Shown here piece after piece: positions 94 through 11,364 of a stretch of 17,299 bases of DNA. Position 1 is the stretch's first letter. Every line of letters begins with the position of its first letter. The notes under the pieces are model-generated. The model saw only the letters and a list, made by a program, of their open reading frames with translations. It was not told the DNA's origin and ran no database searches. The stretch is taken from NCBI GenBank assembly GCA_013331215.1, contig DUGU01000054.1:1-17299 (forward strand). Reading direction: 5' to 3'. This DNA is from Methanoregulaceae archaeon (GTDB taxonomy: Archaea > Halobacteriota > Methanomicrobia > Methanomicrobiales > Methanospirillaceae). The translations under genes were made by a program, and so were the position numbers.

Positions 94-630
94 ATGACGG
101 ATCTCGAGGCGCTGGCGCGGGAGATCGGAGCGATCGGCTTCGCCTGCACGAACTGCGGCGACTGCTGCCGCGGGCTCGGTGAGGACGGCTCGCTCGTGAT
201 GGTCTGGCGGGCCGAGGCCCGCCGGGTCGCGGAGGCGGCGGATCTCGCCTTCGGCGAGGCGGTCGTGCCGTTCCCCGGCGAGATCGAGGTGCGCGGCCGC
301 CCCTGCCGGCTGGGCTGGGCCCTCGCCCGGGACGACGACGGAGCGTGCCGCTTCCACGACGGCGACCGGTGCACGGTCTACGAGGCGCGCCCATGGATCT
401 GCCGGACCTATCCCTTCATGCTCGACGGCGACCGTCTCGTCGTCTCCGAGTGCCCGGGCCTCGGCACGCCGATCTCCGACGCCGACGCCCGGGGTCTCGC
501 GGCCGACCTCCTCGCGCGCCGGGCGGCCGAAGAGGACGAGGCCGAACGCGTGCGCTGCGTCGTCGCGTCCGCCGAGCTCCCGCCCGACGGCACGTTCGTC
601 GTCGACGCCGAGGGGGTGACGCGGGCGTGA
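94..630 (+). CDS. YkgJ-family cysteine-cluster (CxxCxxCC) protein
   Basis: This 178-residue protein has the hallmark CTNCGDCC cluster at residues 18-25, then Cys85, Cys93 and Cys103 in a CRFHDGDRCTVYEARPWIC block, and Cys120. This arrangement is typical of the UPF0153/YkgJ family, annotated as a putative zinc- or iron-chelating domain. The cysteines probably bind a metal or an Fe-S cluster; the substrate and partner are not known. It looks soluble, with no signal peptide or membrane segment. The ATG at 94 places the cluster near the N-terminus, as usual in the family; a weak GAGGCGTGA stretch lies upstream. Its TGA overlaps the start of the TraB-like gene, so the two are probably translationally coupled. 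Confidence 0.85.
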   Translation: MTDLEALAREIGAIGFACTNCGDCCRGLGEDGSLVMVWRAEARRVAEAADLAFGEAVVPFPGEIEVRGRPCRLGWALARDDDGACRFHDGDRCTVYEARPWICRTYPFMLDGDRLVVSECPGLGTPISDADARGLAADLLARRAAEEDEAERVRCVVASAELPPDGTFVVDAEGVTRA

Positions 631-1832
631 GCGAGATCCGGCTGGTCGGCACGGCCCACGTCTCCGCCGAGTCGGTCGACGAGGTGCGGCGGGAGATCGA
701 CGAGTTCGCCCCCGACATCGTCGCGGTCGAGCTCGACCAGAACCGGTACCACGCCCTGAAGTACGGCGCGGAGGAGCCCGAGATCGCGGACATCCTCAAG
801 AGCGGCAACCTCATGATGTTCCTGCTCCAGTGGGGCCTCGCGTATGTCCAGAAGCAGATCGGCATGGACGTCGGGGTCGAGCCCGGGGCCGAGATGAAGG
901 CCGCGTGCGAGGCGGCCGAGGAGCGGGGGATCCGGATCGGCCTCGTCGATCGCGACATCCGGATCACGCTCAACCGGTTCCTGGCCAATATGACCATTCG
1001 CGAGAAGCTCCGGATGGCCTGGGCCCTCCTGCTCTCGGTCTTTCACTTCGGCGGCGGCGAAGGGGAGGAACTCGACATCGAGGCTCTCAAGCAGCAGGAC
1101 GTGATCGATATGGCCATGGACGAGTTCCGCAAGTTCTCCCCGAACGGGGCCAAGGCCCTGATCGACGAGCGCGACGCGTACCTCGCCCATCAGCTCATCG
1201 GCCTGTCGCGCGCGTACGAACGCGTACTGGCCGTGGTCGGCGCGGGCCACATCGCCGGGATCCGGCGGTACCTCGCGGATCCGACCTCGCTCCCGCCGCT
1301 CGAGGAACTGACGCAGACAGTCAAGCCCTTCCCCTGGATGCGCCTGATCGAGGTCGGAGTCGGCGCCGTCTTTGTCGCCATTCTCGTGCTGATCGCGTTC
1401 TCGGGCGTGGGCGCGGGCGTGCTGCTCTGGGCTCTTGTCTACTGGGTCCTTCTCCACGGCCTGCTGACCGCGATCTTCACCCTGGCCGCGGGCGGTCACC
1501 CGCTCTCGGCCCTCACGGGCTTCGCTGTCTCCTGGCTCACGGCAATCCACCCGCTCCTCGCGGCCGGCTGGTTTTCCGCGATCGTCGAGGCGAAGATCCG
1601 GAAGCCGAGGAAGGGCGACGTCAAGCGCCTGCTCGAGGCCGCGAGCTTCGCCGAGATGCGGCAGAACCCGCTCTTCAAGGTCGTCTTCGTCGCGGCCCTC
1701 GCAAACGTCGGCTCGACCCTCGGCACGGTCGCGTACTTCGTCTTCCTCTTCCCGGCCCTCGGCGTTGACCCGGCGGTCATGCTCGGGCAGGGGGCCTCGA
1801 ACATCTGGCACCTCATCGTCGGCGGGGCATAG
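627..1832 (+). CDS. TraB-family (TraB/PrgY) membrane protein
   Basis: The 401-residue protein begins at GTG 627, which overlaps the upstream stop (GTGA), with GGGGGTGA at 612-619 as a good ribosome-binding site. The N-terminal domain has the TraB/PrgY signatures: GTAHVS at residues 8-13, VELD at 34-37, ERD at 181-183 and GAGH at 205-208. The related TraB/GumN/Tiki fold contains metalloproteases, and these conserved His/Glu residues suit a catalytic or metal site; the archaeal function is undetermined. Residues 240-400 hold several hydrophobic segments (about 243-262, 264-287, 296-320, 351-378), so the C-terminal half is an integral membrane domain. The frame is open far upstream of GTG 627, but that part only shadows the cysteine-cluster gene. 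Confidence 0.85.
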   Translation: MSEIRLVGTAHVSAESVDEVRREIDEFAPDIVAVELDQNRYHALKYGAEEPEIADILKSGNLMMFLLQWGLAYVQKQIGMDVGVEPGAEMKAACEAAEERGIRIGLVDRDIRITLNRFLANMTIREKLRMAWALLLSVFHFGGGEGEELDIEALKQQDVIDMAMDEFRKFSPNGAKALIDERDAYLAHQLIGLSRAYERVLAVVGAGHIAGIRRYLADPTSLPPLEELTQTVKPFPWMRLIEVGVGAVFVAILVLIAFSGVGAGVLLWALVYWVLLHGLLTAIFTLAAGGHPLSALTGFAVSWLTAIHPLLAAGWFSAIVEAKIRKPRKGDVKRLLEAASFAEMRQNPLFKVVFVAALANVGSTLGTVAYFVFLFPALGVDPAVMLGQGASNIWHLIVGGA

Positions 1833-2707: not shown

Positions 2708-4303
2708 TCAAAGCTTCGTGAGCTCATACGTATTGCCCTCCCCAACCTGGTTGATGGCCGGGAAGGTCCCATCGGCCGCGATCTGGAAGCTCGAGTCCGT
2801 GACCGGTTTCTCGTAGTCGGGGTTGCCGTAGTACCACCCGAGCATGGACTGGTACCCGTCCTTCCCGGTCACGTTCCGCTGGGTGAAGCCCTTGAGGATG
2901 ATGTCGTCGGAATAGGCCGCCCAGAGCCCCCACTCGATGTTGCCCGAGGTCGCGCAGTCGTCGAGGGCAACGCCCTGCGAGTCCTTGACGACCTTCCACC
3001 CGTACGTCGACCCGCTGTCCGTGCAGCGCTCGAAGGTGACGTTCCGGCCCCCCTGGACGAAGTAGCCGGCGTTCCTGTTGTTCTCGGAGGTGCAGTTGAT
3101 CAGGATCGCGTTGTTGTGGACGTAGTACCCCGACTGGAAGGTCTCCGTGTATGGATAGCCCTTGGTGTTCCGCTGGCCGTTCCCGATGCTGACGCAGTCC
3201 TCCATCCGGATGTCTTCGGCCACGGTCTTGGGCGTGGCGTGGCCGCCGGGCTCGAAGTGGAAGCCCGACTCCCAGTTGTCCTCGGCACGGCAGCGGAGGA
3301 CCGTGATCCCGTAGAGGTCGTTCGTCTCGTGGAAGTCGAACCCGGTCGCCCAGATCGCGTTCGAGTCAGCGTTCCCGCAGCGGATGGCCGTGCAGTCGAT
3401 GTACCGGAGGTCGCGCGTCTCCTTGGGCGAGCCGTCGCCGTTGACGTTGAACCCGTGGATCCCGCAGTCGATCGCGGTGCAGTTCCGGAACTCGATGTCC
3501 TGGAGGACCGTGTCCTTGGCGAAGACGAAGAACGCACCGTTCGCCTCGACCTTGCCCGAGTGCATGGTGCTGATCGTGACGTTTTCTACGAGGACGTGGC
3601 TCGACCGGACCAGGATGAACCCACGGTCGATCACCCTGAAGCCGCGAAGCGTCACCCCGTCCTGGAGGAGCTCGATCGGCTTGTAGTAGCCCGTGACGTC
3701 GATCGTGGTCAGGTCCTGACCGAGGCCCATGAAGGTCGTGCCGGCCCGCGGGCTCAGCTTGTCCGTGCAGTGGAACGTCCCGTCGAGCAGGGTCACGGTC
3801 CCGCCGTTCGCGGCGGCCTCGTCGAGGGCGCGCTGGATCTCGACCTGGTCGTCGGTGCCGTCGCAGCGGTGGGCCGCGCCCGACACCCCCGGGTCCTTAC
3901 TGTCGGCGGCCGCGACCAGGATCGCCCCCGCCGGCCAGACCGGCGTCGCGGTCGGGATAACCGCGGTCGGTGTGGGAGTCGCGGGGCCGTCGGCCGGTCC
4001 CCGCGCGAGCAGGGCCGCGCCCCCGAGCGCGGCCACGATCACGATCGCGACCGCGATCAGCACGAGGGCGCGCCGTCCCATCCGTGCCTCACCGGGCTCC
4101 GGCACAGGCCGCGCCGGGGGGCGTGGCGATGCTGTGGGCTCAGGCGGTTCAGCGGCCGCGGGACCTTCCGCAGACCCCGTTGGCCCGACGTCCTCTGCCG
4201 GTGAGGGCGGGGCTGTCGCCGGCGCCGTCTCTCCCGGCCCGGACTCGACCGGCCCGGTCATTTCGTTGGTGGAGATTGTCTCGTCCCTCGGCTCGTCCGC
4301 CAT
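2708..4303 (-). CDS. Membrane-anchored right-handed parallel beta-helix (NosD-like) protein
   Basis: 531 residues. Residues 1-76 are acidic, Pro/Ala-rich and predicted cytoplasmic; one hydrophobic segment (about 79-100, preceded by RMGRRAL) anchors the protein with its C-terminus outside; a TPTPT linker follows. The rest is a pectate-lyase-like/NosD beta-helix: it starts with a DGTDDQVEIQRALDEA motif and has repeated short strands with Asn/Cys ladders (VENVTISTM, FRNCTAIDCGIHGFNV, LINCTSENNRNAGYFV, FERCTDSGSTYGW). Such proteins bind or cleave polysaccharides, or act as surface proteins; no catalytic set can be named. ATG 4303 is preferred because GAGGAG lies at 4314-4309; GTG 4309 is too close to it. 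An in-frame dockerin-like tail follows the stop codon. Confidence 0.8.
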   Translation of the reverse strand: MADEPRDETISTNEMTGPVESGPGETAPATAPPSPAEDVGPTGSAEGPAAAEPPEPTASPRPPARPVPEPGEARMGRRALVLIAVAIVIVAALGGAALLARGPADGPATPTPTAVIPTATPVWPAGAILVAAADSKDPGVSGAAHRCDGTDDQVEIQRALDEAAANGGTVTLLDGTFHCTDKLSPRAGTTFMGLGQDLTTIDVTGYYKPIELLQDGVTLRGFRVIDRGFILVRSSHVLVENVTISTMHSGKVEANGAFFVFAKDTVLQDIEFRNCTAIDCGIHGFNVNGDGSPKETRDLRYIDCTAIRCGNADSNAIWATGFDFHETNDLYGITVLRCRAEDNWESGFHFEPGGHATPKTVAEDIRMEDCVSIGNGQRNTKGYPYTETFQSGYYVHNNAILINCTSENNRNAGYFVQGGRNVTFERCTDSGSTYGWKVVKDSQGVALDDCATSGNIEWGLWAAYSDDIILKGFTQRNVTGKDGYQSMLGWYYGNPDYEKPVTDSSFQIAADGTFPAINQVGEGNTYELTKL

Positions 4304-4462
4304 CCTCACTCCTCGTGCGGCCCCGGGTTTCCGGGACCGGTTGTCCCGTACCGTTGGACCCGACCATTCTTAACACCGCCCGAAGGGGTCCGCGGTTCGG
4401 AGCGGGATGAATTCGCGAAGAATGGAAACGTTTTTCCCCTTTGCCCGCGATAATGCTCCAGA

Positions 4463-5195: not shown

Positions 5196-5283
5196 AGTAG
5201 AAGAGAGTAGTAGTTCTCATCAATGGGTGCAGTGGCTGCTGTCGGTAGTTCGCTATTTCCATTTGAAAGGTTGGAGGTAAGTG

Positions 5284-6225
5284 ATGAAATCATTTCATAT
5301 CCTGGGTGCAAGCGCACTCCTGGTAATTTTGTTAGTGGCGAGTGCAAGTGCCACGTCAGTTTCGGTGGATAAGCACGAGTTCGCGTCGAACGAAGAGATC
5401 CAGTACCATGTCACGCACCTGGTGGATGGGGTCGAATACGTGCAGAAGACCACTGTTACCCAGCACTTGAACAGCGATCTGCGGACTGCGCTCGGGATCA
5501 ACCCCGTCTCATGGCCCTTCGCCCATGAGAAAGATGTCTTCAAGATGATGAATGAAGGCACGCTGTACAACGAGGTGTATATCGGTCACTGGTGGCCATC
5601 AGAGACGACACAGGGATATCAGGACTTCCACGTCTTTGACAAGAGTGATGATAATGGCAAATGGAGCAGGACGGTGAACACTGAGACGGACGAGACAGGC
5701 ACGTACCATTCAACCTGGCTCAACAGAGTGGCGCCGGGCACTGAGACCGTCACCAGCACCTTCTGGATCGAGGGCAAGAAGCTCTCCGGGCCGAACGATT
5801 TCGATGGGAACACATCATTCTGGACGACCAGTCCGGCCGACGTCAAGGTCGAATGGTTTGATAACGGCGTCCTCGCTGACACCGAGGAGTTCACGATCGC
5901 TCCTATCGGGGGTGCGTACTTCGTCGCCACTCCAGATGTATCCAAAGTCGGTGACAAGGTGAAGTTCCAGTTGATACCAGCGAGCGGCAAGACCGTCAAA
6001 TCGGCCTGGTGGTCATTCGACGCAACCAATCATCTCCAGACCTGGAACTCGAGAAATATCGACCCGGCGTTCTTTTACCCGAGATGGGCCGAGGGCTACC
6101 AGTCTCCGCAGGTAAAGATCACGTATACCGACGGATCGACCGAGACAGTCACGCGGGAGAATTATATTCGGATCATCTCGGATAGGATCCCCCGGTCCCG
6201 GTTTTTCAAAAATATCGATTACTAA
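5284..6225 (+). CDS. Secreted protein with PKD-like C-terminal domain (paralog 1 of 3)
   Basis: 313 residues. A signal peptide (MKSFHILGASALLVILLVAS, Ala-rich cleavage region near residue 23) is followed by a beta-rich domain to about residue 205 and a PKD-like domain at 210-298 (GAYFVATPDVSKVGDKVKF, FFYPRWAEGYQSPQVKITY). ATG 5284 is chosen over GTG 5281 because GGAGGT at 5273-5278 is well spaced for it. The block APGTETVTSTF, G, SGP at residues 150-170 occurs at exactly the same residues in the second paralog. It has no C-terminal anchor, so it is released or bound through another protein. Codon use is less GC-rich than in the flanking genes. Function is unknown; PKD domains usually serve adhesion or protein contact outside the cell. 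Confidence 0.75.
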   Translation: MKSFHILGASALLVILLVASASATSVSVDKHEFASNEEIQYHVTHLVDGVEYVQKTTVTQHLNSDLRTALGINPVSWPFAHEKDVFKMMNEGTLYNEVYIGHWWPSETTQGYQDFHVFDKSDDNGKWSRTVNTETDETGTYHSTWLNRVAPGTETVTSTFWIEGKKLSGPNDFDGNTSFWTTSPADVKVEWFDNGVLADTEEFTIAPIGGAYFVATPDVSKVGDKVKFQLIPASGKTVKSAWWSFDATNHLQTWNSRNIDPAFFYPRWAEGYQSPQVKITYTDGSTETVTRENYIRIISDRIPRSRFFKNIDY

Positions 6226-6915: not shown

Positions 6916-7010
6916 GAAAAGGTAACAAATAACGTTTTGCATTGCACAATTCAGGCCTTTCTTCTATCGGACGATGGTAAAGAAGGACCAGAGCGGTGGT
7001 GGTGATAGGT

Positions 7011-7931
7011 ATGATATCAAAAAAGATCTGGTATATCATCGCAGGGATCTGCCTTTTGGGCCTGATCGTGGGAACCGCCTCGGCGGTCACTGTTGCATTT
7101 GATAAAACTGAGTACAGGGTCAACGATACCGCGAAAGTAACGGTCACCGGTGCAGCCGACGGGACCGTCTTCTCGATTAACCTCACGACCTACAATCAGG
7201 TCGCACCTGACCAGAAGTTCTCGTATCAGACCGGGAACATCAGCATTCCGTTCTCGGTAGCGGTCAGGGATGCCACGGCGACGGCGTCCAGTGAGAACAG
7301 CACCTACAACACCATCACGGTGGGACGGTGGAATAACGTGGGTGTCTATGAGGAGTTCACGCGGAGCGACCCCTCGGCGAACAGGACCTTCAAGCGGAGC
7401 ACCACGTACCAGTCGATGGACGGGGGCATCTTCTTCGGCAGGTGGGCCGGCACTGCCGCGCCCGGGTCGTCAAAGGTGACCTCGACGTTCCAGTTCACCG
7501 GGACCAAGGCCAGCGGGCCCGCCGACTTCACCCTTACCGCGAATGCCGTCTCCGCTCCGTCGGCGACGGGGTATCTCGAGGTCAGGGCCGGCGATGCGGT
7601 GGCCTATGCAGGTTGGATCTCTATGGTCACCTCGACTACGACCGCGAGCCCGACCAGCGAGGGAGGATCGGGCAGTGATGATTCCGGCGGATCCGGATCG
7701 GTGACGACCGGGACCACGTCGAGTGGCTCCGGCTCCGGTTCCGGTTCGAGCACGACCGTCACAACGGTCGTGGGTGGGACCAACACAACCACTACTGTAA
7801 CCGCTACGAATTCCAGCGCCGGTGCCACGACCGTGGCAACGACCACGGCGAAACCTGCGGGCATGCCCTTCGCGTTCATCGTTGTTCTGGGCATCGGCGT
7901 TGCGGCCCTGCTTGCGTGCAGACGCCGGTAA
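7011..7931 (+). CDS. Secreted, C-terminally anchored surface protein (paralog 2 of 3)
   Basis: 306 residues: signal peptide (1-25, cleavage near TASA-VTV), a beta-rich domain to about residue 205, a Ser/Thr/Gly linker with SGSGSGSGSST and TNTTTTVTATN stretches, and a final membrane segment ending ACRRR. The linker looks suited to O- and N-glycosylation, and the anchor places the domain outside the cell. ATG 7011 is chosen because GGTGAT (7001-7006) lies 4 nt upstream; GTG 6996 has no such site. APGSSKVTSTF and KASGP fall at the same residue numbers (150-170) as in paralog 1, and DGTVFSINL matches NGTVFSLQL of paralog 3. Residues 1-200 match no family I recognise. Confidence 0.75.
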   Translation: MISKKIWYIIAGICLLGLIVGTASAVTVAFDKTEYRVNDTAKVTVTGAADGTVFSINLTTYNQVAPDQKFSYQTGNISIPFSVAVRDATATASSENSTYNTITVGRWNNVGVYEEFTRSDPSANRTFKRSTTYQSMDGGIFFGRWAGTAAPGSSKVTSTFQFTGTKASGPADFTLTANAVSAPSATGYLEVRAGDAVAYAGWISMVTSTTTASPTSEGGSGSDDSGGSGSVTTGTTSSGSGSGSGSSTTVTTVVGGTNTTTTVTATNSSAGATTVATTTAKPAGMPFAFIVVLGIGVAALLACRRR

Positions 7932-8013
7932 CTTCTCCGAACCCGATGAGGCCGGGCACACCGCCCCCCTCTCTTTTGCAGGAGGACCAACACCTCCCAT
8001 CTACCGAGCTCCA

Positions 8014-8020
8014 CTTATAC
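8014..8020 (+). promoter_or_regulatory. TATA box of a leaderless transcript (paralog 3)
   Basis: CTTATAC at 8014-8020 is centred 25 nt before the A of ATG 8042. That is the usual archaeal distance from TATA box to transcription start, so transcription should begin at or next to the start codon. The absence of a Shine-Dalgarno before 8042 agrees with this. Confidence 0.6.
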
Positions 8021-8041
8021 CACGAAACTCGATATTCCTGT

Positions 8042-8725
8042 ATGCAGCGTCTTGCCCTAGCACTCCTCATCTTCTGCGTCGCGGCCGCCCCGGCCGGTGC
8101 GGTCGGCGTCGATATCCGGCCGGACCGGGTTCTCGACGGTGACACGGTCACGATCGCGCTCTCCGACATTCCGAACGGCACGGTCTTCTCCCTGCAGCTC
8201 GAAGGTGCCGTCGCCCCCGGCCCTGGCGGCACATTCGCCTTCACCACGACCGACCTCGTCATGCCCTTCACCCTGGAGCACGGCGAGGTTCAGGCCGCGC
8301 TCGAGAACACCGCGACGAACGAGCTCACTGTCCGCAAGGGAGATACCCAGGTGAAGATGTCAGGTGCGTCCCAGAACGGCAGGTACTCGGCCGACCGGAA
8401 CATCACCATCGCGGCCGGCACGTACGACGAGATCGGCCTTTCCGGCACGGCCGCGCCCGGTGCGGCCACGGTCCAGGCCACTCTCTCCCTGACCGGTATC
8501 AAGCGCGGGCCGGACAGCGCGACGATCTCCTTCAGGGTCCGGGGAGTGACCCAGGGCACGATGACGGTCCAGGTCTTCGCGAACGCGGAGAAGGTCTACG
8601 GTAAAGAGATCGCGCTCGGCCCGGCCTCGACACCGACGCAGCCGGCCGGCACCGGCGCGCTTGCCGCGATGGTGGCCACGGCCGGCCTGGCCGTCGCGCT
8701 GGCCGCCGTGCGGCGGCGCCGGTAG
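8042..8725 (+). CDS. Secreted, C-terminally anchored protein (paralog 3 of 3)
   Basis: 227 residues. The signal peptide MQRLALALLIFCVAAAPAGA is followed by a beta-rich domain and a short Pro/Thr linker (GPASTPTQPAG); the C-terminal membrane segment (about 205-223) ends in RRRR. It resembles paralog 2 without gaps in several blocks: NGTVFSLQLEG (DGTVFSINLTT), LVMPFTLEHGEVQAALENT (ISIPFSVAVRDATATASSEN), and GTAAPGAATV (GTAAPGSSKV). It lacks the long Ser/Gly linker and the PKD domain. The start at ATG 8042 is set by the signal peptide and the leaderless TATA box; the frame is open further upstream, but without a signal peptide. Function is unknown, presumably a surface or adhesion protein. Confidence 0.75.
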   Translation: MQRLALALLIFCVAAAPAGAVGVDIRPDRVLDGDTVTIALSDIPNGTVFSLQLEGAVAPGPGGTFAFTTTDLVMPFTLEHGEVQAALENTATNELTVRKGDTQVKMSGASQNGRYSADRNITIAAGTYDEIGLSGTAAPGAATVQATLSLTGIKRGPDSATISFRVRGVTQGTMTVQVFANAEKVYGKEIALGPASTPTQPAGTGALAAMVATAGLAVALAAVRRRR

Positions 8726-8780: not shown

Positions 8781-9668
8781 TCACCCGGCCCGGAGATATT
8801 CCCAGAACCGGCCGTGCCTCGCGGCCCGCAGGACCCGGCACGGGGACTGGCCGGCGATCCGCGTCGCGTGCACGAGGACGTTGCGCTTGAGGCGGACCCG
8901 GTCCTCGAGGCAGAAGCCGCCCCAGTAGTGCGAATACAGAGTGAGCGCGTTCTCCGCAAGGCGCTGAACCGCCGCGGTGGGGCCCAGGGGGGCGGCGGCA
9001 TCGGCCGGCGACGGTTCGAGAAACCAGAGCCCGGCGAGGGAGAAGGTCCGGTCGGTCTCGACCGCGTGGACCGCCTCGGGGTCGGCGTCGAAGGCGCTCC
9101 ACGTCGGCAACGGCAACAGGGCATAGCCGTCTTCCGTCGCGACGGCGGCGAGCATGTCGTCCGCCACCCCGCGCCACGGCGCCGGGACGCGCGCGGCGGC
9201 CGTGGACTTTCCTGCCCCGCTCGCCCCGGCGAGGACGTGCCCCGCATCGCCGTCCGCGATCAGGGCGCCGTGGACCAGGAGGAGCCGGTCCGAGAGCAGG
9301 GAGAGGAGCCCGCCCGTGATGAACGAAGCGAGGTGCCACCGGACCTGCGCCGACGGGTACTTCACGGGATAGCCGGGGACGCCGCAGAGGTACTCGCCCC
9401 GCGACGGGCTCTCCCGGATCAGCACCCGGTCCCGGACGCAGTACGACCGCCACGATGCCGGGGAGCCCTCGCCGTCGAAGAGGCCGTCGACCCGGGGCGG
9501 GGTGGAGGACGCGTGAAGGTGCATGTCGATGCCGCCCGGAGCCCCGGGCGGCCCGGCCTGCATGACCCGCGCGAGCATCTCCACGAGGTCCGCCGTCTCG
9601 TCGAGTGCCGAGACCTGCACCCGGACAGGCGGGGCATCGAGAAGAGTGTGGGGGCCGGCCGCAGTCAT
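8781..9668 (-). CDS. scmC: HPr-kinase-like P-loop protein, ScmC-like (SynChlorMet cassette)
   Basis: 295 residues from ATG 9668, chosen because GGAG lies 6 nt upstream and the peptide gene ends 14 nt before it. Residues 131-137 (LVHGALI) and the Walker A GASGAGKST at 148-156 match HPr kinase/phosphorylase-like proteins; VADDM (168-172) is a likely second nucleotide or metal site. The N-terminal 100 residues have no recognised domain. As I remember it, ScmC is the HprK-like member of a putative peptide-modification cassette named after Syntrophobacter, Chlorobium and Methanocella. The gene directly follows a Cys-rich peptide gene of the ScmA kind, so the peptide is its probable substrate or partner. 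The alternative is another HprK-related kinase. The reaction (phosphorylation or ATP-dependent processing) is inferred, not seen. Confidence 0.65.
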   Translation of the reverse strand: MTAAGPHTLLDAPPVRVQVSALDETADLVEMLARVMQAGPPGAPGGIDMHLHASSTPPRVDGLFDGEGSPASWRSYCVRDRVLIRESPSRGEYLCGVPGYPVKYPSAQVRWHLASFITGGLLSLLSDRLLLVHGALIADGDAGHVLAGASGAGKSTAAARVPAPWRGVADDMLAAVATEDGYALLPLPTWSAFDADPEAVHAVETDRTFSLAGLWFLEPSPADAAAPLGPTAAVQRLAENALTLYSHYWGGFCLEDRVRLKRNVLVHATRIAGQSPCRVLRAARHGRFWEYLRAG

Positions 9669-9682
9669 GCCCGGCTCCGTCG

Positions 9683-9889
9683 TCAGGTTTGGAGGTGCAC
9701 AGCGCCCGAGATCCCGGCGTCGCACCAGCTACCGTCGGAACTCCCCGTATCGCACCCGCCGGCCGCCCGGTTTCCGGTCGGCATGCATCCCCACGTGGCA
9801 TTCGAACCGCCCCCGCAGGAGGCGCCAAAACCGATGGCGGACTCGTTGAGGTCGACAAGGGCCGGCGTCTCGTACCGCACCATGATCAT
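9683..9889 (-). CDS. scmA: Cys/Gly/Ser-rich short peptide, probable RiPP precursor (ScmA-like)
   Basis: 68 residues. The leader-like start is MIMVRYETPALVDLNESAIG, and the core is FGASCGGGSNATWG followed by three more Cys segments. Cys25, Cys35, Cys46 and Cys56 are spaced by 9, 10 and 9 residues, each followed within a few residues by Gly (CGGG, CMPTG, CDTG, CDAG), giving a fourfold quasi-repeat. A conserved YExPxLVxLN leader before a Gly/Cys/Ser core is typical of precursors modified by radical SAM/SPASM systems, and of proteins called ScmA. The start may be ATG 9889 or ATG 9883. It has no signal peptide. It is co-oriented with the kinase-like gene 14 nt downstream. The modification and the mature product are unknown, and no maturase is visible in the window. 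Confidence 0.65.
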   Translation of the reverse strand: MIMVRYETPALVDLNESAIGFGASCGGGSNATWGCMPTGNRAAGGCDTGSSDGSWCDAGISGAVHLQT

Positions 9890-9906: not shown

Positions 9907-9929
9907 GGTAAATACCTTGACAATAAATA
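9907..9929 (-). promoter_or_regulatory. Candidate TATA elements of the precursor peptide gene
   Basis: On the minus strand TATTTATT (9929-9922) and GGTATTTACC (9916-9907) lie 20-40 nt before the possible starts at 9889 and 9883. Either could drive a leaderless or very short-leader message; no Shine-Dalgarno is seen. The stretch is markedly AT-richer than the genes on both sides. Confidence 0.4.
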
Positions 9930-9984: not shown

Positions 9985-11364
9985 TCACCGGCGACGGCGG
10001 AGCCCGGCCCATGCCCCGAGGAGGGCGAGCGCAGCAACCGGGAGGAACGCGGGCACCCCGCTCGTCGCGGTCCCGTTCGGGATCACGAGCCGGAGCGACG
10101 TCGTGGCCGTCGCGTTCGGTGAGGCCGTCGTGGTGACGTTGGCCGTGCGGTTGCCGGCCGCAGTCCGGTTCGCCGCCGTCGTCGCGGTCGCGTTTCTTCC
10201 CGTTACGTTCACCTTCGTAGCTCCACTGACGGTGACCGTGGTCTTCCCGATCGTCGCGGATGCGTTCAGGCCTGCGGTCCCGTTCCGGGCCCCGGTGGCG
10301 TTGACCGTCGCCGTCACGTTCCCCGCCGGCGTCGCGTTCGGGGCCTTCGCGGGGGCGGCCGGGGACTTCGCCCCGGTGTCGAAGACGTACGCGGTCCCCT
10401 CGTCGCAGCCGACGGCCACGGTCGTTCCGTCGGCCGAGAGCGAGAGCGAGAGCGGATCGCCCGCGAGCGCCGCGTCCCAGAGCGGCGTCCCGTTCCCGGC
10501 GAGGAGGCGGAGCCGTCGGTCCGCCGAGGCGACCGCGACCAGGGCGCCGCTCCCCGAGACCGCGACCCGGTTCACCGGGGCGCCGGCCGAACGGTTCCAG
10601 AGCAGCTCCCCCCCGGGACCGAGCGCGGCCACGGACCCGTCCTCGCCGCCGGCCACGGTCAGGTTCGCGGACGGGGTCATAGCGAGCGACCGGACCCGGC
10701 CGCTCGTCGGGAAGCGGGCGAGCCGCTCGCCCGTGAGGTTGAAGAATTTCACGGACCCGCCGTCCCCGACCGCGACGAGGTCGCCGCTCGCGTTCATGGC
10801 GAGGGCGCTCGGGGTCGCGAGCTCGACCGACCAGCGGTGCGCGCCTTTCCGCGTGAACGCCCGGACCCCGCCGCCGTCGGTCGTCACGACCACCGAGCCG
10901 TTTTTCGAGACCGCGACTGCGAGGGCTTCACCGGTCGCACCCGTGTCGGTCGTGCCGACCCGGCCGCCGGCCGCAGTGAAGGTCGAGAGAAGCCCGCCCG
11001 GACCGAGGGCCGCGATCGTCGCACCGTCGCTCGAGACCGCGACTGCCACGGAGGCATTCGGTGCCGACCAGAGCTCGCTCCCGTTCCGCGAGACGCCGCG
11101 CGCCGCGTCGCCGGTCCCCGAGACGACCAGGGACCCGGCGGCGTTGACGGCGATGGCGTTGGCGTGCCAGGTGGTCCCGGTCAGGCCCCCCTTCCGGTCG
11201 AAGATGTGCACGAGGTCGGACGAGACCACGATCACCTTCCCGTCGTTCGAGACCGCGCAGTCCCGTACCGGTTCGGAGGAGTTGTGGGTCCAGAGGGGGG
11301 AGACGGCCAGGGCGGGGGCGACCAGCACGAGGCAGGCGAGTGCGAGCAGGGCGTGGCGATACAT
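9985..11364 (-). CDS. Secreted WD40/PQQ-like beta-propeller with glycosylated stalk and C-terminal anchor
   Basis: 459 residues. Signal peptide (MYRHALLALACLVLVAPALA), then about seven propeller blades over residues 20-325, each with a pattern such as AVAVSSDGATIAAL, ALAMNASGDLVAVG or SLSLSADGTTVAVG followed by an aromatic strand (LLWNRS, PLWDAA). Next comes a stalk of roughly 100 residues carrying 12 N-x-S/T sequons (NAT, NVT, NGT, NRT) and a last hydrophobic segment ending GLRRRR. The protein should sit on the outer face of the membrane or in the S-layer, with the propeller as a protein- or ligand-binding platform; no catalytic residues are recognisable. It is transcribed alone: it has its own TATA-like element upstream and a T7 tract after the stop. 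Confidence 0.8.
   Translation of the reverse strand: MYRHALLALACLVLVAPALAVSPLWTHNSSEPVRDCAVSNDGKVIVVSSDLVHIFDRKGGLTGTTWHANAIAVNAAGSLVVSGTGDAARGVSRNGSELWSAPNASVAVAVSSDGATIAALGPGGLLSTFTAAGGRVGTTDTGATGEALAVAVSKNGSVVVTTDGGGVRAFTRKGAHRWSVELATPSALAMNASGDLVAVGDGGSVKFFNLTGERLARFPTSGRVRSLAMTPSANLTVAGGEDGSVAALGPGGELLWNRSAGAPVNRVAVSGSGALVAVASADRRLRLLAGNGTPLWDAALAGDPLSLSLSADGTTVAVGCDEGTAYVFDTGAKSPAAPAKAPNATPAGNVTATVNATGARNGTAGLNASATIGKTTVTVSGATKVNVTGRNATATTAANRTAAGNRTANVTTTASPNATATTSLRLVIPNGTATSGVPAFLPVAALALLGAWAGLRRRR

Follow-up and report, generated by a model that had tools for sequence, protein, structure and literature searches.

A small minus-strand gene in the DNA stretch analysed here (17,299 nucleotides; the window) probably encodes a RiPP precursor of the SCM (SynChlorMet-cassette) type and forms, with an adjacent HprK-like kinase gene, a two-gene satellite unit in the MAG of a methanogen. 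To our knowledge, few archaeal RiPPs have been described. That the peptide is a RiPP precursor had been put forward in a preliminary description of this DNA; the proposal is supported by the ScmC-like neighbourhood and by conservation of the leader and of the Cys/Gly pattern. A link to radical SAM/SPASM enzymes, suggested at the same time, holds at the level of the genome and the family through SCM cassettes, but not within the window, which has no radical SAM gene.

Table 1. Features of the precursor locus, in window coordinates
Feature	Position	Strand	Remarks
Proposed RiPP precursor gene	9683..9883	minus	66 aa from ATG 9883; other start ATG 9889 gives 68 aa
Leader block YETPALVDLNESAIGFG	9824..9874	minus	YxxPxLVDL motif (RRE-binding type), G-x-G at end
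Core, four C-x-x(-x)-G units	9686..9823	minus	Cys25/35/46/56, gaps 10/11/10
HprK/ScmC-like peptide-kinase gene	8781..9668	minus	295 aa; ATG 9668; 14 nt after precursor stop
Candidate archaeal TATA box TATTTATT	9922..9929	minus	AT-rich patch upstream of precursor, by eye
WD40/PQQ-type protein gene	9985..11364	minus	Upstream neighbour; 56% identity to homologue near G091 SCM cassette
Surface-protein-like gene	7916..8725	plus	Convergent neighbour; 60% identical to gene near G091 SCM cassette

The precursor frame and its conservation

The 68-residue frame reported at 9683–9889 is present and lies on the minus strand, a detail absent from the preliminary description. Read from 9889 to 9683, it translates as MIMVRYETPALVDLNESAIGFGASCGGGSNATWGCMPTGNRAAGGCDTGSSDGSWCDAGISGAVHLQT followed by a stop; the plus-strand frame at these positions holds no such peptide. 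Homology with the peptide of G091, a genome of the same genus, begins at M3 (MV[R/K]Y), so translation probably starts at ATG 9883 and not at 9889. The four cysteines are positioned as claimed, at near-constant spacing. The further statement that each is followed by Gly is true of a Gly at +3 (C25, C46 and C56) or +4 (C35), but a Gly directly after the Cys is found at C25 only. Inspection by eye found no hydrophobic, signal-peptide-like stretch.

The arrangement of the core was compared with chance. All three gaps of 10 or 11 together with all four Gly at +3 or +4 occurred in a fraction of 3e-5 of 200,000 shuffles of the core residues. Nowhere else in the six reading frames of the window do four Cys stand at gaps of 10/11, and 300 Markov-simulated windows yielded six such stretches, none with all four Gly.

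The G091 homologue (MVKYATPDLIDLSDSAIGYGANCDPGSAPTGSCNPTGYAASPNC..., E = 4.4e-12) belongs to the same pair of precursor and kinase genes. Across 60 aligned codons, the window and G091 genes differ at 20, 17 and 34 first, second and third positions, respectively, a purifying pattern that fits conservation at the protein level. An HMM built from 27 precursors of other genera scored the window ORF at 35.6 bits (E = 1.6e-10), with the next window ORF at 8.2 bits (0.048) and the best hit in 69 control loci, among the matches listed, at 9.6 bits (1.3). With a leader-only HMM the values were 15.6 bits (1.7e-4) for the window ORF, 3.0 bits elsewhere in the window and 11.9 bits (0.18) for the controls, again among the matches listed; in both cases the E-values of window and controls refer to databases of different size. 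As judged by sequence, the window precursor fits a profile of SCM-type precursors (YxxP leader plus CxxG repeats near ScmE/ScmC) that was built without its own genus.

Leaders are better conserved than cores in the pairs compared, with 11/17 versus 18/40 residues shared between the window and G091 and 16/18 versus 63/112 between G077c and G084c. The window leader shares 8/17 residues with that of the precursor on C171, the contig of the same MAG that carries an SCM cassette, and this counts against reading the window pair as a satellite of that cassette. Related peptides beside or near ScmC-like genes, as looked for in other genomes, were found in G091, G107 and others as well as on C171, and both the leader block and the Cys/Gly pattern are kept among related precursors. 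A related-loci search with the window peptide alone confirmed no relative. Weaker peptide-homology places in G042 (E = 1.1e-4), G012, G061, G003 and G063 held no such precursor and were left out of the precursor counts; other weaker matches, with higher E-values, fell in G084, G077 and others, and the own genome gave a match on C41.

The adjacent kinase gene and the split locus

The window kinase scores 103.7 bits against the ScmC model TIGR04249 (E = 1.1e-29), below the cut-off of 125, as do the cassette ScmC proteins of G091 (98.4 bits) and C171 (114.1 bits). A Pfam scan of the kinase returned no family at E ≤ 0.01, and the top solved-structure match of the ScmC profile is HPr kinase/phosphatase (E = 9.9e-5). 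The kinase contains H133, G148, G151, G153-K154-S155 and D170-D171. The available part of the report on the lasso peptide kinase BsfK gives its conserved residues as H148-G163-G166-G168-K169-S170-D186-D187 (PMC10368454), so that the distances from H to K and from K to DD are 21 and 16 residues in the window kinase versus 21 and 17 in BsfK. A search for the motif pattern in 27 of the 33 SCM loci (the window and L058 among them) found it in 22/27, the window counted. At the level of motifs, the window kinase has the His, the P-loop GxxGxGK[ST] and the DD of HPr-kinase-like peptide kinases.

Queries for radical SAM proteins, ScmE, ScmF, ScmD (RRE), S26 peptidase, nucleotidyltransferase and ABC exporter gave no match in the window. 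With no radical SAM gene there, the modification would depend on enzymes encoded at another site of the genome. G091 has ScmD, ScmE, precursor, ScmC, ScmF and ABC exporter on one contig, in a gene order that differs from that of the window, and the WD40/PQQ-type homologue anchors synteny between the two. Since G091 shares the neighbourhood yet keeps the full set on one contig, the window locus looks reduced or split. The AT-rich patch TATTTATT is a possible promoter element by sequence; the window as a whole has 66% GC.

Three neighbouring and seemingly related surface-protein-like genes on the plus strand (5281–6225, 6996–7931 and 7916–8725) each have matches in one region beside the G091 SCM cassette. 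Elsewhere, the large protein encoded at 2708–4309 (minus strand) has a membrane-like segment at its N-terminus, and its body looks by eye like a parallel beta-helix; 94–1832 (plus strand) contains a gene for a Cys-rich (CxxCGDCC) protein followed by a further frame, which presumably resembles TraB.

The MAG is 66.5% complete with 2.11% contamination in 348 contigs. Its contig C171 carries ScmF, another precursor (MTKYERPQLIDLSDAETGYG...), ScmC, ScmE and ScmD, with scores over the cut-offs for ScmF (513.3/400), ScmE (536.7/400) and ScmD (101.9/100); ScmD is PqqD-type (PF05402). The ScmE and ScmF of G091 are 66% identical to those of C171. Against the SPASM model (cut-off 21.5), the C171 ScmE scores above at 27.3 bits and the ScmF below at 19.0. 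The pair of precursor and ScmC-like genes seen in the window recurs in G091 and on C171. C171 breaks off inside a gene for an S26 peptidase, with SMNPT among the first residues, and the relative in the same-genus genome G092 runs on. When the MAG was searched with the ScmF and ScmE of G077, the next matches after C171 were 25–27% identical. NTP_transf_5 was not found in the MAG (66.5% complete), nor was a close relative of the G091 ABC exporter, for which the matches were 26–36% identical and covered the ATPase part only. Of the LPP-type parts, the MAG has an RRE, genes for HprK-like proteins and the beginning of an S26 gene. C171 is ~90% identical to a contig of G092; given this identity and the 2.11% contamination, C171 and the window could stem from different strains in a mixed-strain bin.

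Precursors and enzymes across ScmE loci

At E ≤ 1e-5, 18/108 genomes of the family have ScmC-like matches (7 pass the cut-off); at E ≤ 1e-60, 19/232 genomes of the order have ScmE (9 pass the cut-off). When named genomes were scanned with an alignment of ScmE, 80 of at least 407 relatives were kept, so that the bacterial sample is partial; at least 11 (11/80 among the matches listed) are ScmE-like at ≥40% identity. The taxa listed are Nitrospirae, Deltaproteobacteria, Anaerolineae and other Chloroflexi, Chlorobiaceae, Lentisphaeria, Victivallales and Acidobacteria. One of the 11 is the G091 contig itself, deposited as 'Methanospirillum sp.', with 12,316 bases identical to L023. The 69 weaker relatives within the 80 listed served as controls, and 2 of these controls pass loose ScmE/ScmF thresholds.

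Precursors were gathered near ScmE/ScmC by composition and by leader patterns suggested by the window peptide. Under a rule fixed after examples had been seen (a small ORF whose leader is of the YxxP type and which has three or more CxxG/CxxxG units at a spacing of 9–13), matching peptides were found at 15/21 archaeal (methanogen) ScmE loci and, among the matches listed, at 10/10 bacterial loci and 0/69 controls. Relaxing the rule to two units gave 16/21 archaeal loci and, with the same scope, 10/10 bacterial loci and 3/69 controls. Six of the 21 archaeal loci are without a peptide by the three-unit rule; four of these are contigs of <10 kb, and the other two, G085 and G199, have similar peptides that fail the spacing rule.

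In a set of 29 precursors, which excludes the second ones of L078, L083 and L087, one of L060 and those found later, 99/163 Cys–Cys gaps have a length of 10 or 11, and 121/157 units long enough to judge carry Gly at +3. A G-x-G shortly before the core Cys was seen by eye in 28/30 archaeal precursors (not in G085 and G084d) versus 2/11 bacterial ones among the matches listed; an automatic count gave 36/41, using a stretch able to reach into the core. Because most bacterial leaders have no G-x-G, candidate cleavage at this site rests on the archaeal set. L032 and L060 (G077 and G084) have several long precursors (129–140 aa, 9–10 Cys units) around one SCM enzyme set, which suggests that one enzyme set there serves many products.

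The enzymes of the cassette recur at the same loci. The counts for archaeal and bacterial ScmE loci (the latter among the matches listed) are 18/21 and 9/10 for ScmF, 19/21 and 10/10 for ScmD, 15/21 and 8/10 for ScmC, 9/21 and 7/10 for ScmB, 7/21 and 4/10 for the ABC exporter, and 11/21 and 9/10 for S26, all obtained with several query sequences from the counted loci themselves and on many short contigs. Among the matches listed for the 69 controls, S26 is absent (0/69), and only the ScmE and ScmF queries matched, 2 each. ScmB of G055, G005 and G107 is NTP_transf_5 (PF14907). An S26 part is fused to ScmC in G108 (PF10502, 24.3 bits, cut-off 22.9), in G085 (20.0 bits, below the cut-off) and in G005 (similarity only). 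Frames that join ScmC kinase and S26 lie at L188:11699-13237, L057:5788-7347 and L058:9346-10893, with Pfam S26 above the cut-off in L188 only. The nearest solved sequences to ScmD are a PqqD family protein, TfuB1 and TbiB1, the last two of which we take to be lasso RREs.

In a FastTree phylogeny of 25 ScmE sequences, the methanogen copies are spread over several groups and mixed with sequences from Nitrospirae, Chlorobi, Lentisphaeria and Chloroflexi. G214 groups with Chlorobi, Lentisphaeria and Nitrospirae at 0.83, and G000, G091 and G092 group at 0.99; support at some inner nodes is weak, with values as low as 0.28, and partial or broken copies (G057, G079, G107, G211, L087) were left out. 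The interleaving fits (repeated) horizontal spread of the cassette. ScmE has an internal TGA in G057:C1:35496-36560 and is in two pieces in G079:C120 and G211:C1, possibly through decay or assembly error.

Relation to known pathways and alternative explanations

The window locus resembles the SCM cassette (TIGR04248 ScmD, TIGR04249 ScmC, TIGR04250 ScmE, TIGR04251 ScmF, TIGR04252 ScmA) in its ScmC-like neighbour, in the ScmE, ScmF and ScmD of the MAG, which exceed curated cut-offs, and in the CxxG-repeat precursors of 25/31 ScmE loci (the bacterial ones among the matches listed). It differs in that its ScmC is below the cut-off, it has no ScmA match, and ScmE, ScmF and ScmD are missing at the locus. 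The likeness to ScmA noted in the preliminary description was not borne out by the profile: an NCBIfam scan of the window peptide gave no family at E ≤ 10, TIGR04252 (35-bit cut-off) included, and membership in ScmA as modelled is rejected. In a search of 10 genomes with TIGR04252, nothing exceeded this cut-off and nothing matched at the window locus. A Victivallales SCM-locus peptide scored 18.5 bits over the full model and a G107 peptide 16.7 bits. As such SCM-locus peptides score only below the cut-off, TIGR04252 looks narrow. An NCBIfam scan of 19 precursors of the CxxG/YxxP kind put none over a cut-off. DUF5972 gave a weak, sub-threshold match to the YxxP stretch of the window peptide (E = 0.22) and likewise of the C171 peptide. 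An open literature search found no publication on DUF5972 or SynChlorMet by name and, among the matches listed, none on ScmA.

Sactipeptides and ranthipeptides share with this system a Cys-rich core and SPASM-domain maturases, here encoded in the MAG, but the C171 ScmE and ScmF are far below the cut-offs of their maturase models. The window core is, as we understand lasso peptides, unlike a lasso core. The lasso B2-type (transglutaminase-like) leader peptidase PF13471 was found in 0/12 genomes at E ≤ 0.001, and identity as a lasso peptide was rejected. The available part of the report on phosphorylated lasso peptides of the BsfA type describes a YxxPxL leader and an HprK-like kinase with the motif H...GxxGxGKS...DD (PMC10368454); the window pair has a leader and a kinase motif of this kind.

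A further likeness is to the LPP pathway, as described in the available portion of its report (PMC13381572). There the core set is an RRE, an HprK kinase, a nucleotidyltransferase, an exporter and an S26-type peptidase. The kinase places several phosphates onto one Ser, and the S26-type enzyme cleaves the leader, aided by the RRE. RREs of lasso pathways recognise [Y/W]xxPx[L/V/I/F/A] motifs and the LPP RRE recognises YxxP; LPPs are reported from Bacillota, with the leader motif YxxPxVLxHQxIxFETxxS. Across SCM loci, the YxxP leader, a discrete RRE, HprK-like kinase, NTP transferase, ABC exporter and S26-type peptidase also occur, but SCM has two additional radical SAM/SPASM enzymes and a CxxG-repeat core. 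Set against that published motif, YETPALVDLNESAIGFG by eye has no HQxIxFET, and membership in LPP was rejected.

Since these loci combine the LPP core set with ScmE and ScmF, we infer RRE-guided radical SAM modification, phosphorylation, S26 cleavage and export. The YxxPxLVDL leader block would be bound by the PqqD-type RRE ScmD, and ScmE and ScmF, encoded on C171, would act in trans on the C-x-x-G units, most plausibly to form Cys thioethers or cross-links of another kind. The adjacent kinase may phosphorylate Ser/Thr of the precursor, the S26 signal peptidase would take off the leader near the conserved G-x-G, and an ABC exporter would secrete the product.

Other readings of the pair were weighed against the SCM-type satellite. 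It could be a self-standing unit that makes an LPP-like phosphorylated linear peptide with its kinase and the RRE and S26 of the genome, free of radical SAM chemistry. The kinase is the sole adjacent enzyme and its motif is intact, and the available LPP main text (PMC13381572) lists RRE, HprK, S26-type peptidase, NTP transferase and exporter with no occurrence of the term radical SAM. We regard this as unlikely, as the core retains the CxxG repeat that accompanies ScmE loci, its leader does not have the HQxIxFET of the LPP motif, and in G091 the precursor and kinase are accompanied by the two radical SAM genes. That the locus is instead the decaying remnant of an SCM cassette, its precursor and kinase still open but out of use there, would account for the missing ScmD, ScmE, ScmF and ABC genes of the G091 locus and for the altered gene order. 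This too seems improbable: both frames are open, the kinase motif is intact, an SCM cassette lies elsewhere in the MAG, and the 20/17/34 codon differences fit selection since the split from G091, although a single sequence pair cannot date when selection stopped.

Two readings would deny the peptide its place among RiPPs. A Cys/Gly-rich small protein of another kind, for example metal-binding or disulfide-bonded and secreted, with the kinase adjacent by chance, would agree with the abundance of Cys and with the missing cross-linking enzyme beside it. We consider it very improbable in view of the RRE-binding-type leader, the want by eye of a signal-peptide-like hydrophobic stretch and the occurrence of such peptides in 25/31 ScmE loci and 0/69 controls (bacterial and control loci among the matches listed). 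Long chance frames are common at 66% GC, but homology, codon pattern, Cys/Gly pattern and HMM score together make a chance frame scarcely credible.

The reading of the window peptide as an SCM-type precursor can be extended, tentatively, to the family. SCM may be a hybrid RiPP class found in methanogens as well as in several bacterial phyla. A single leader would recruit both radical SAM/SPASM cross-linking, at the C-x-x-G units of a ten-residue repeat, and (poly)phosphorylation of the HprK type; RRE-dependent removal of the leader by S26 signal peptidase and export would come next. The satellite pair of the window would borrow its cross-linking enzymes from a cassette at another place in the genome.

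An open literature search found no published account of a tie between SCM and phosphorylated, S26-processed RiPPs. This tie is new, as are the split locus and the definition of the precursor by a YxxPxLIDL-type leader, a G-x-G in methanogens and CxxG repeats of 10/11 residues, the association of which with ScmE loci is backed by control loci. It links SCM to the phosphorylated lasso and LPP pathways, at least as far as the available accounts describe them, and makes S26 as leader peptidase a prediction open to co-expression. The split locus suggests that cluster-based mining can miss precursor genes distant from their enzymes.
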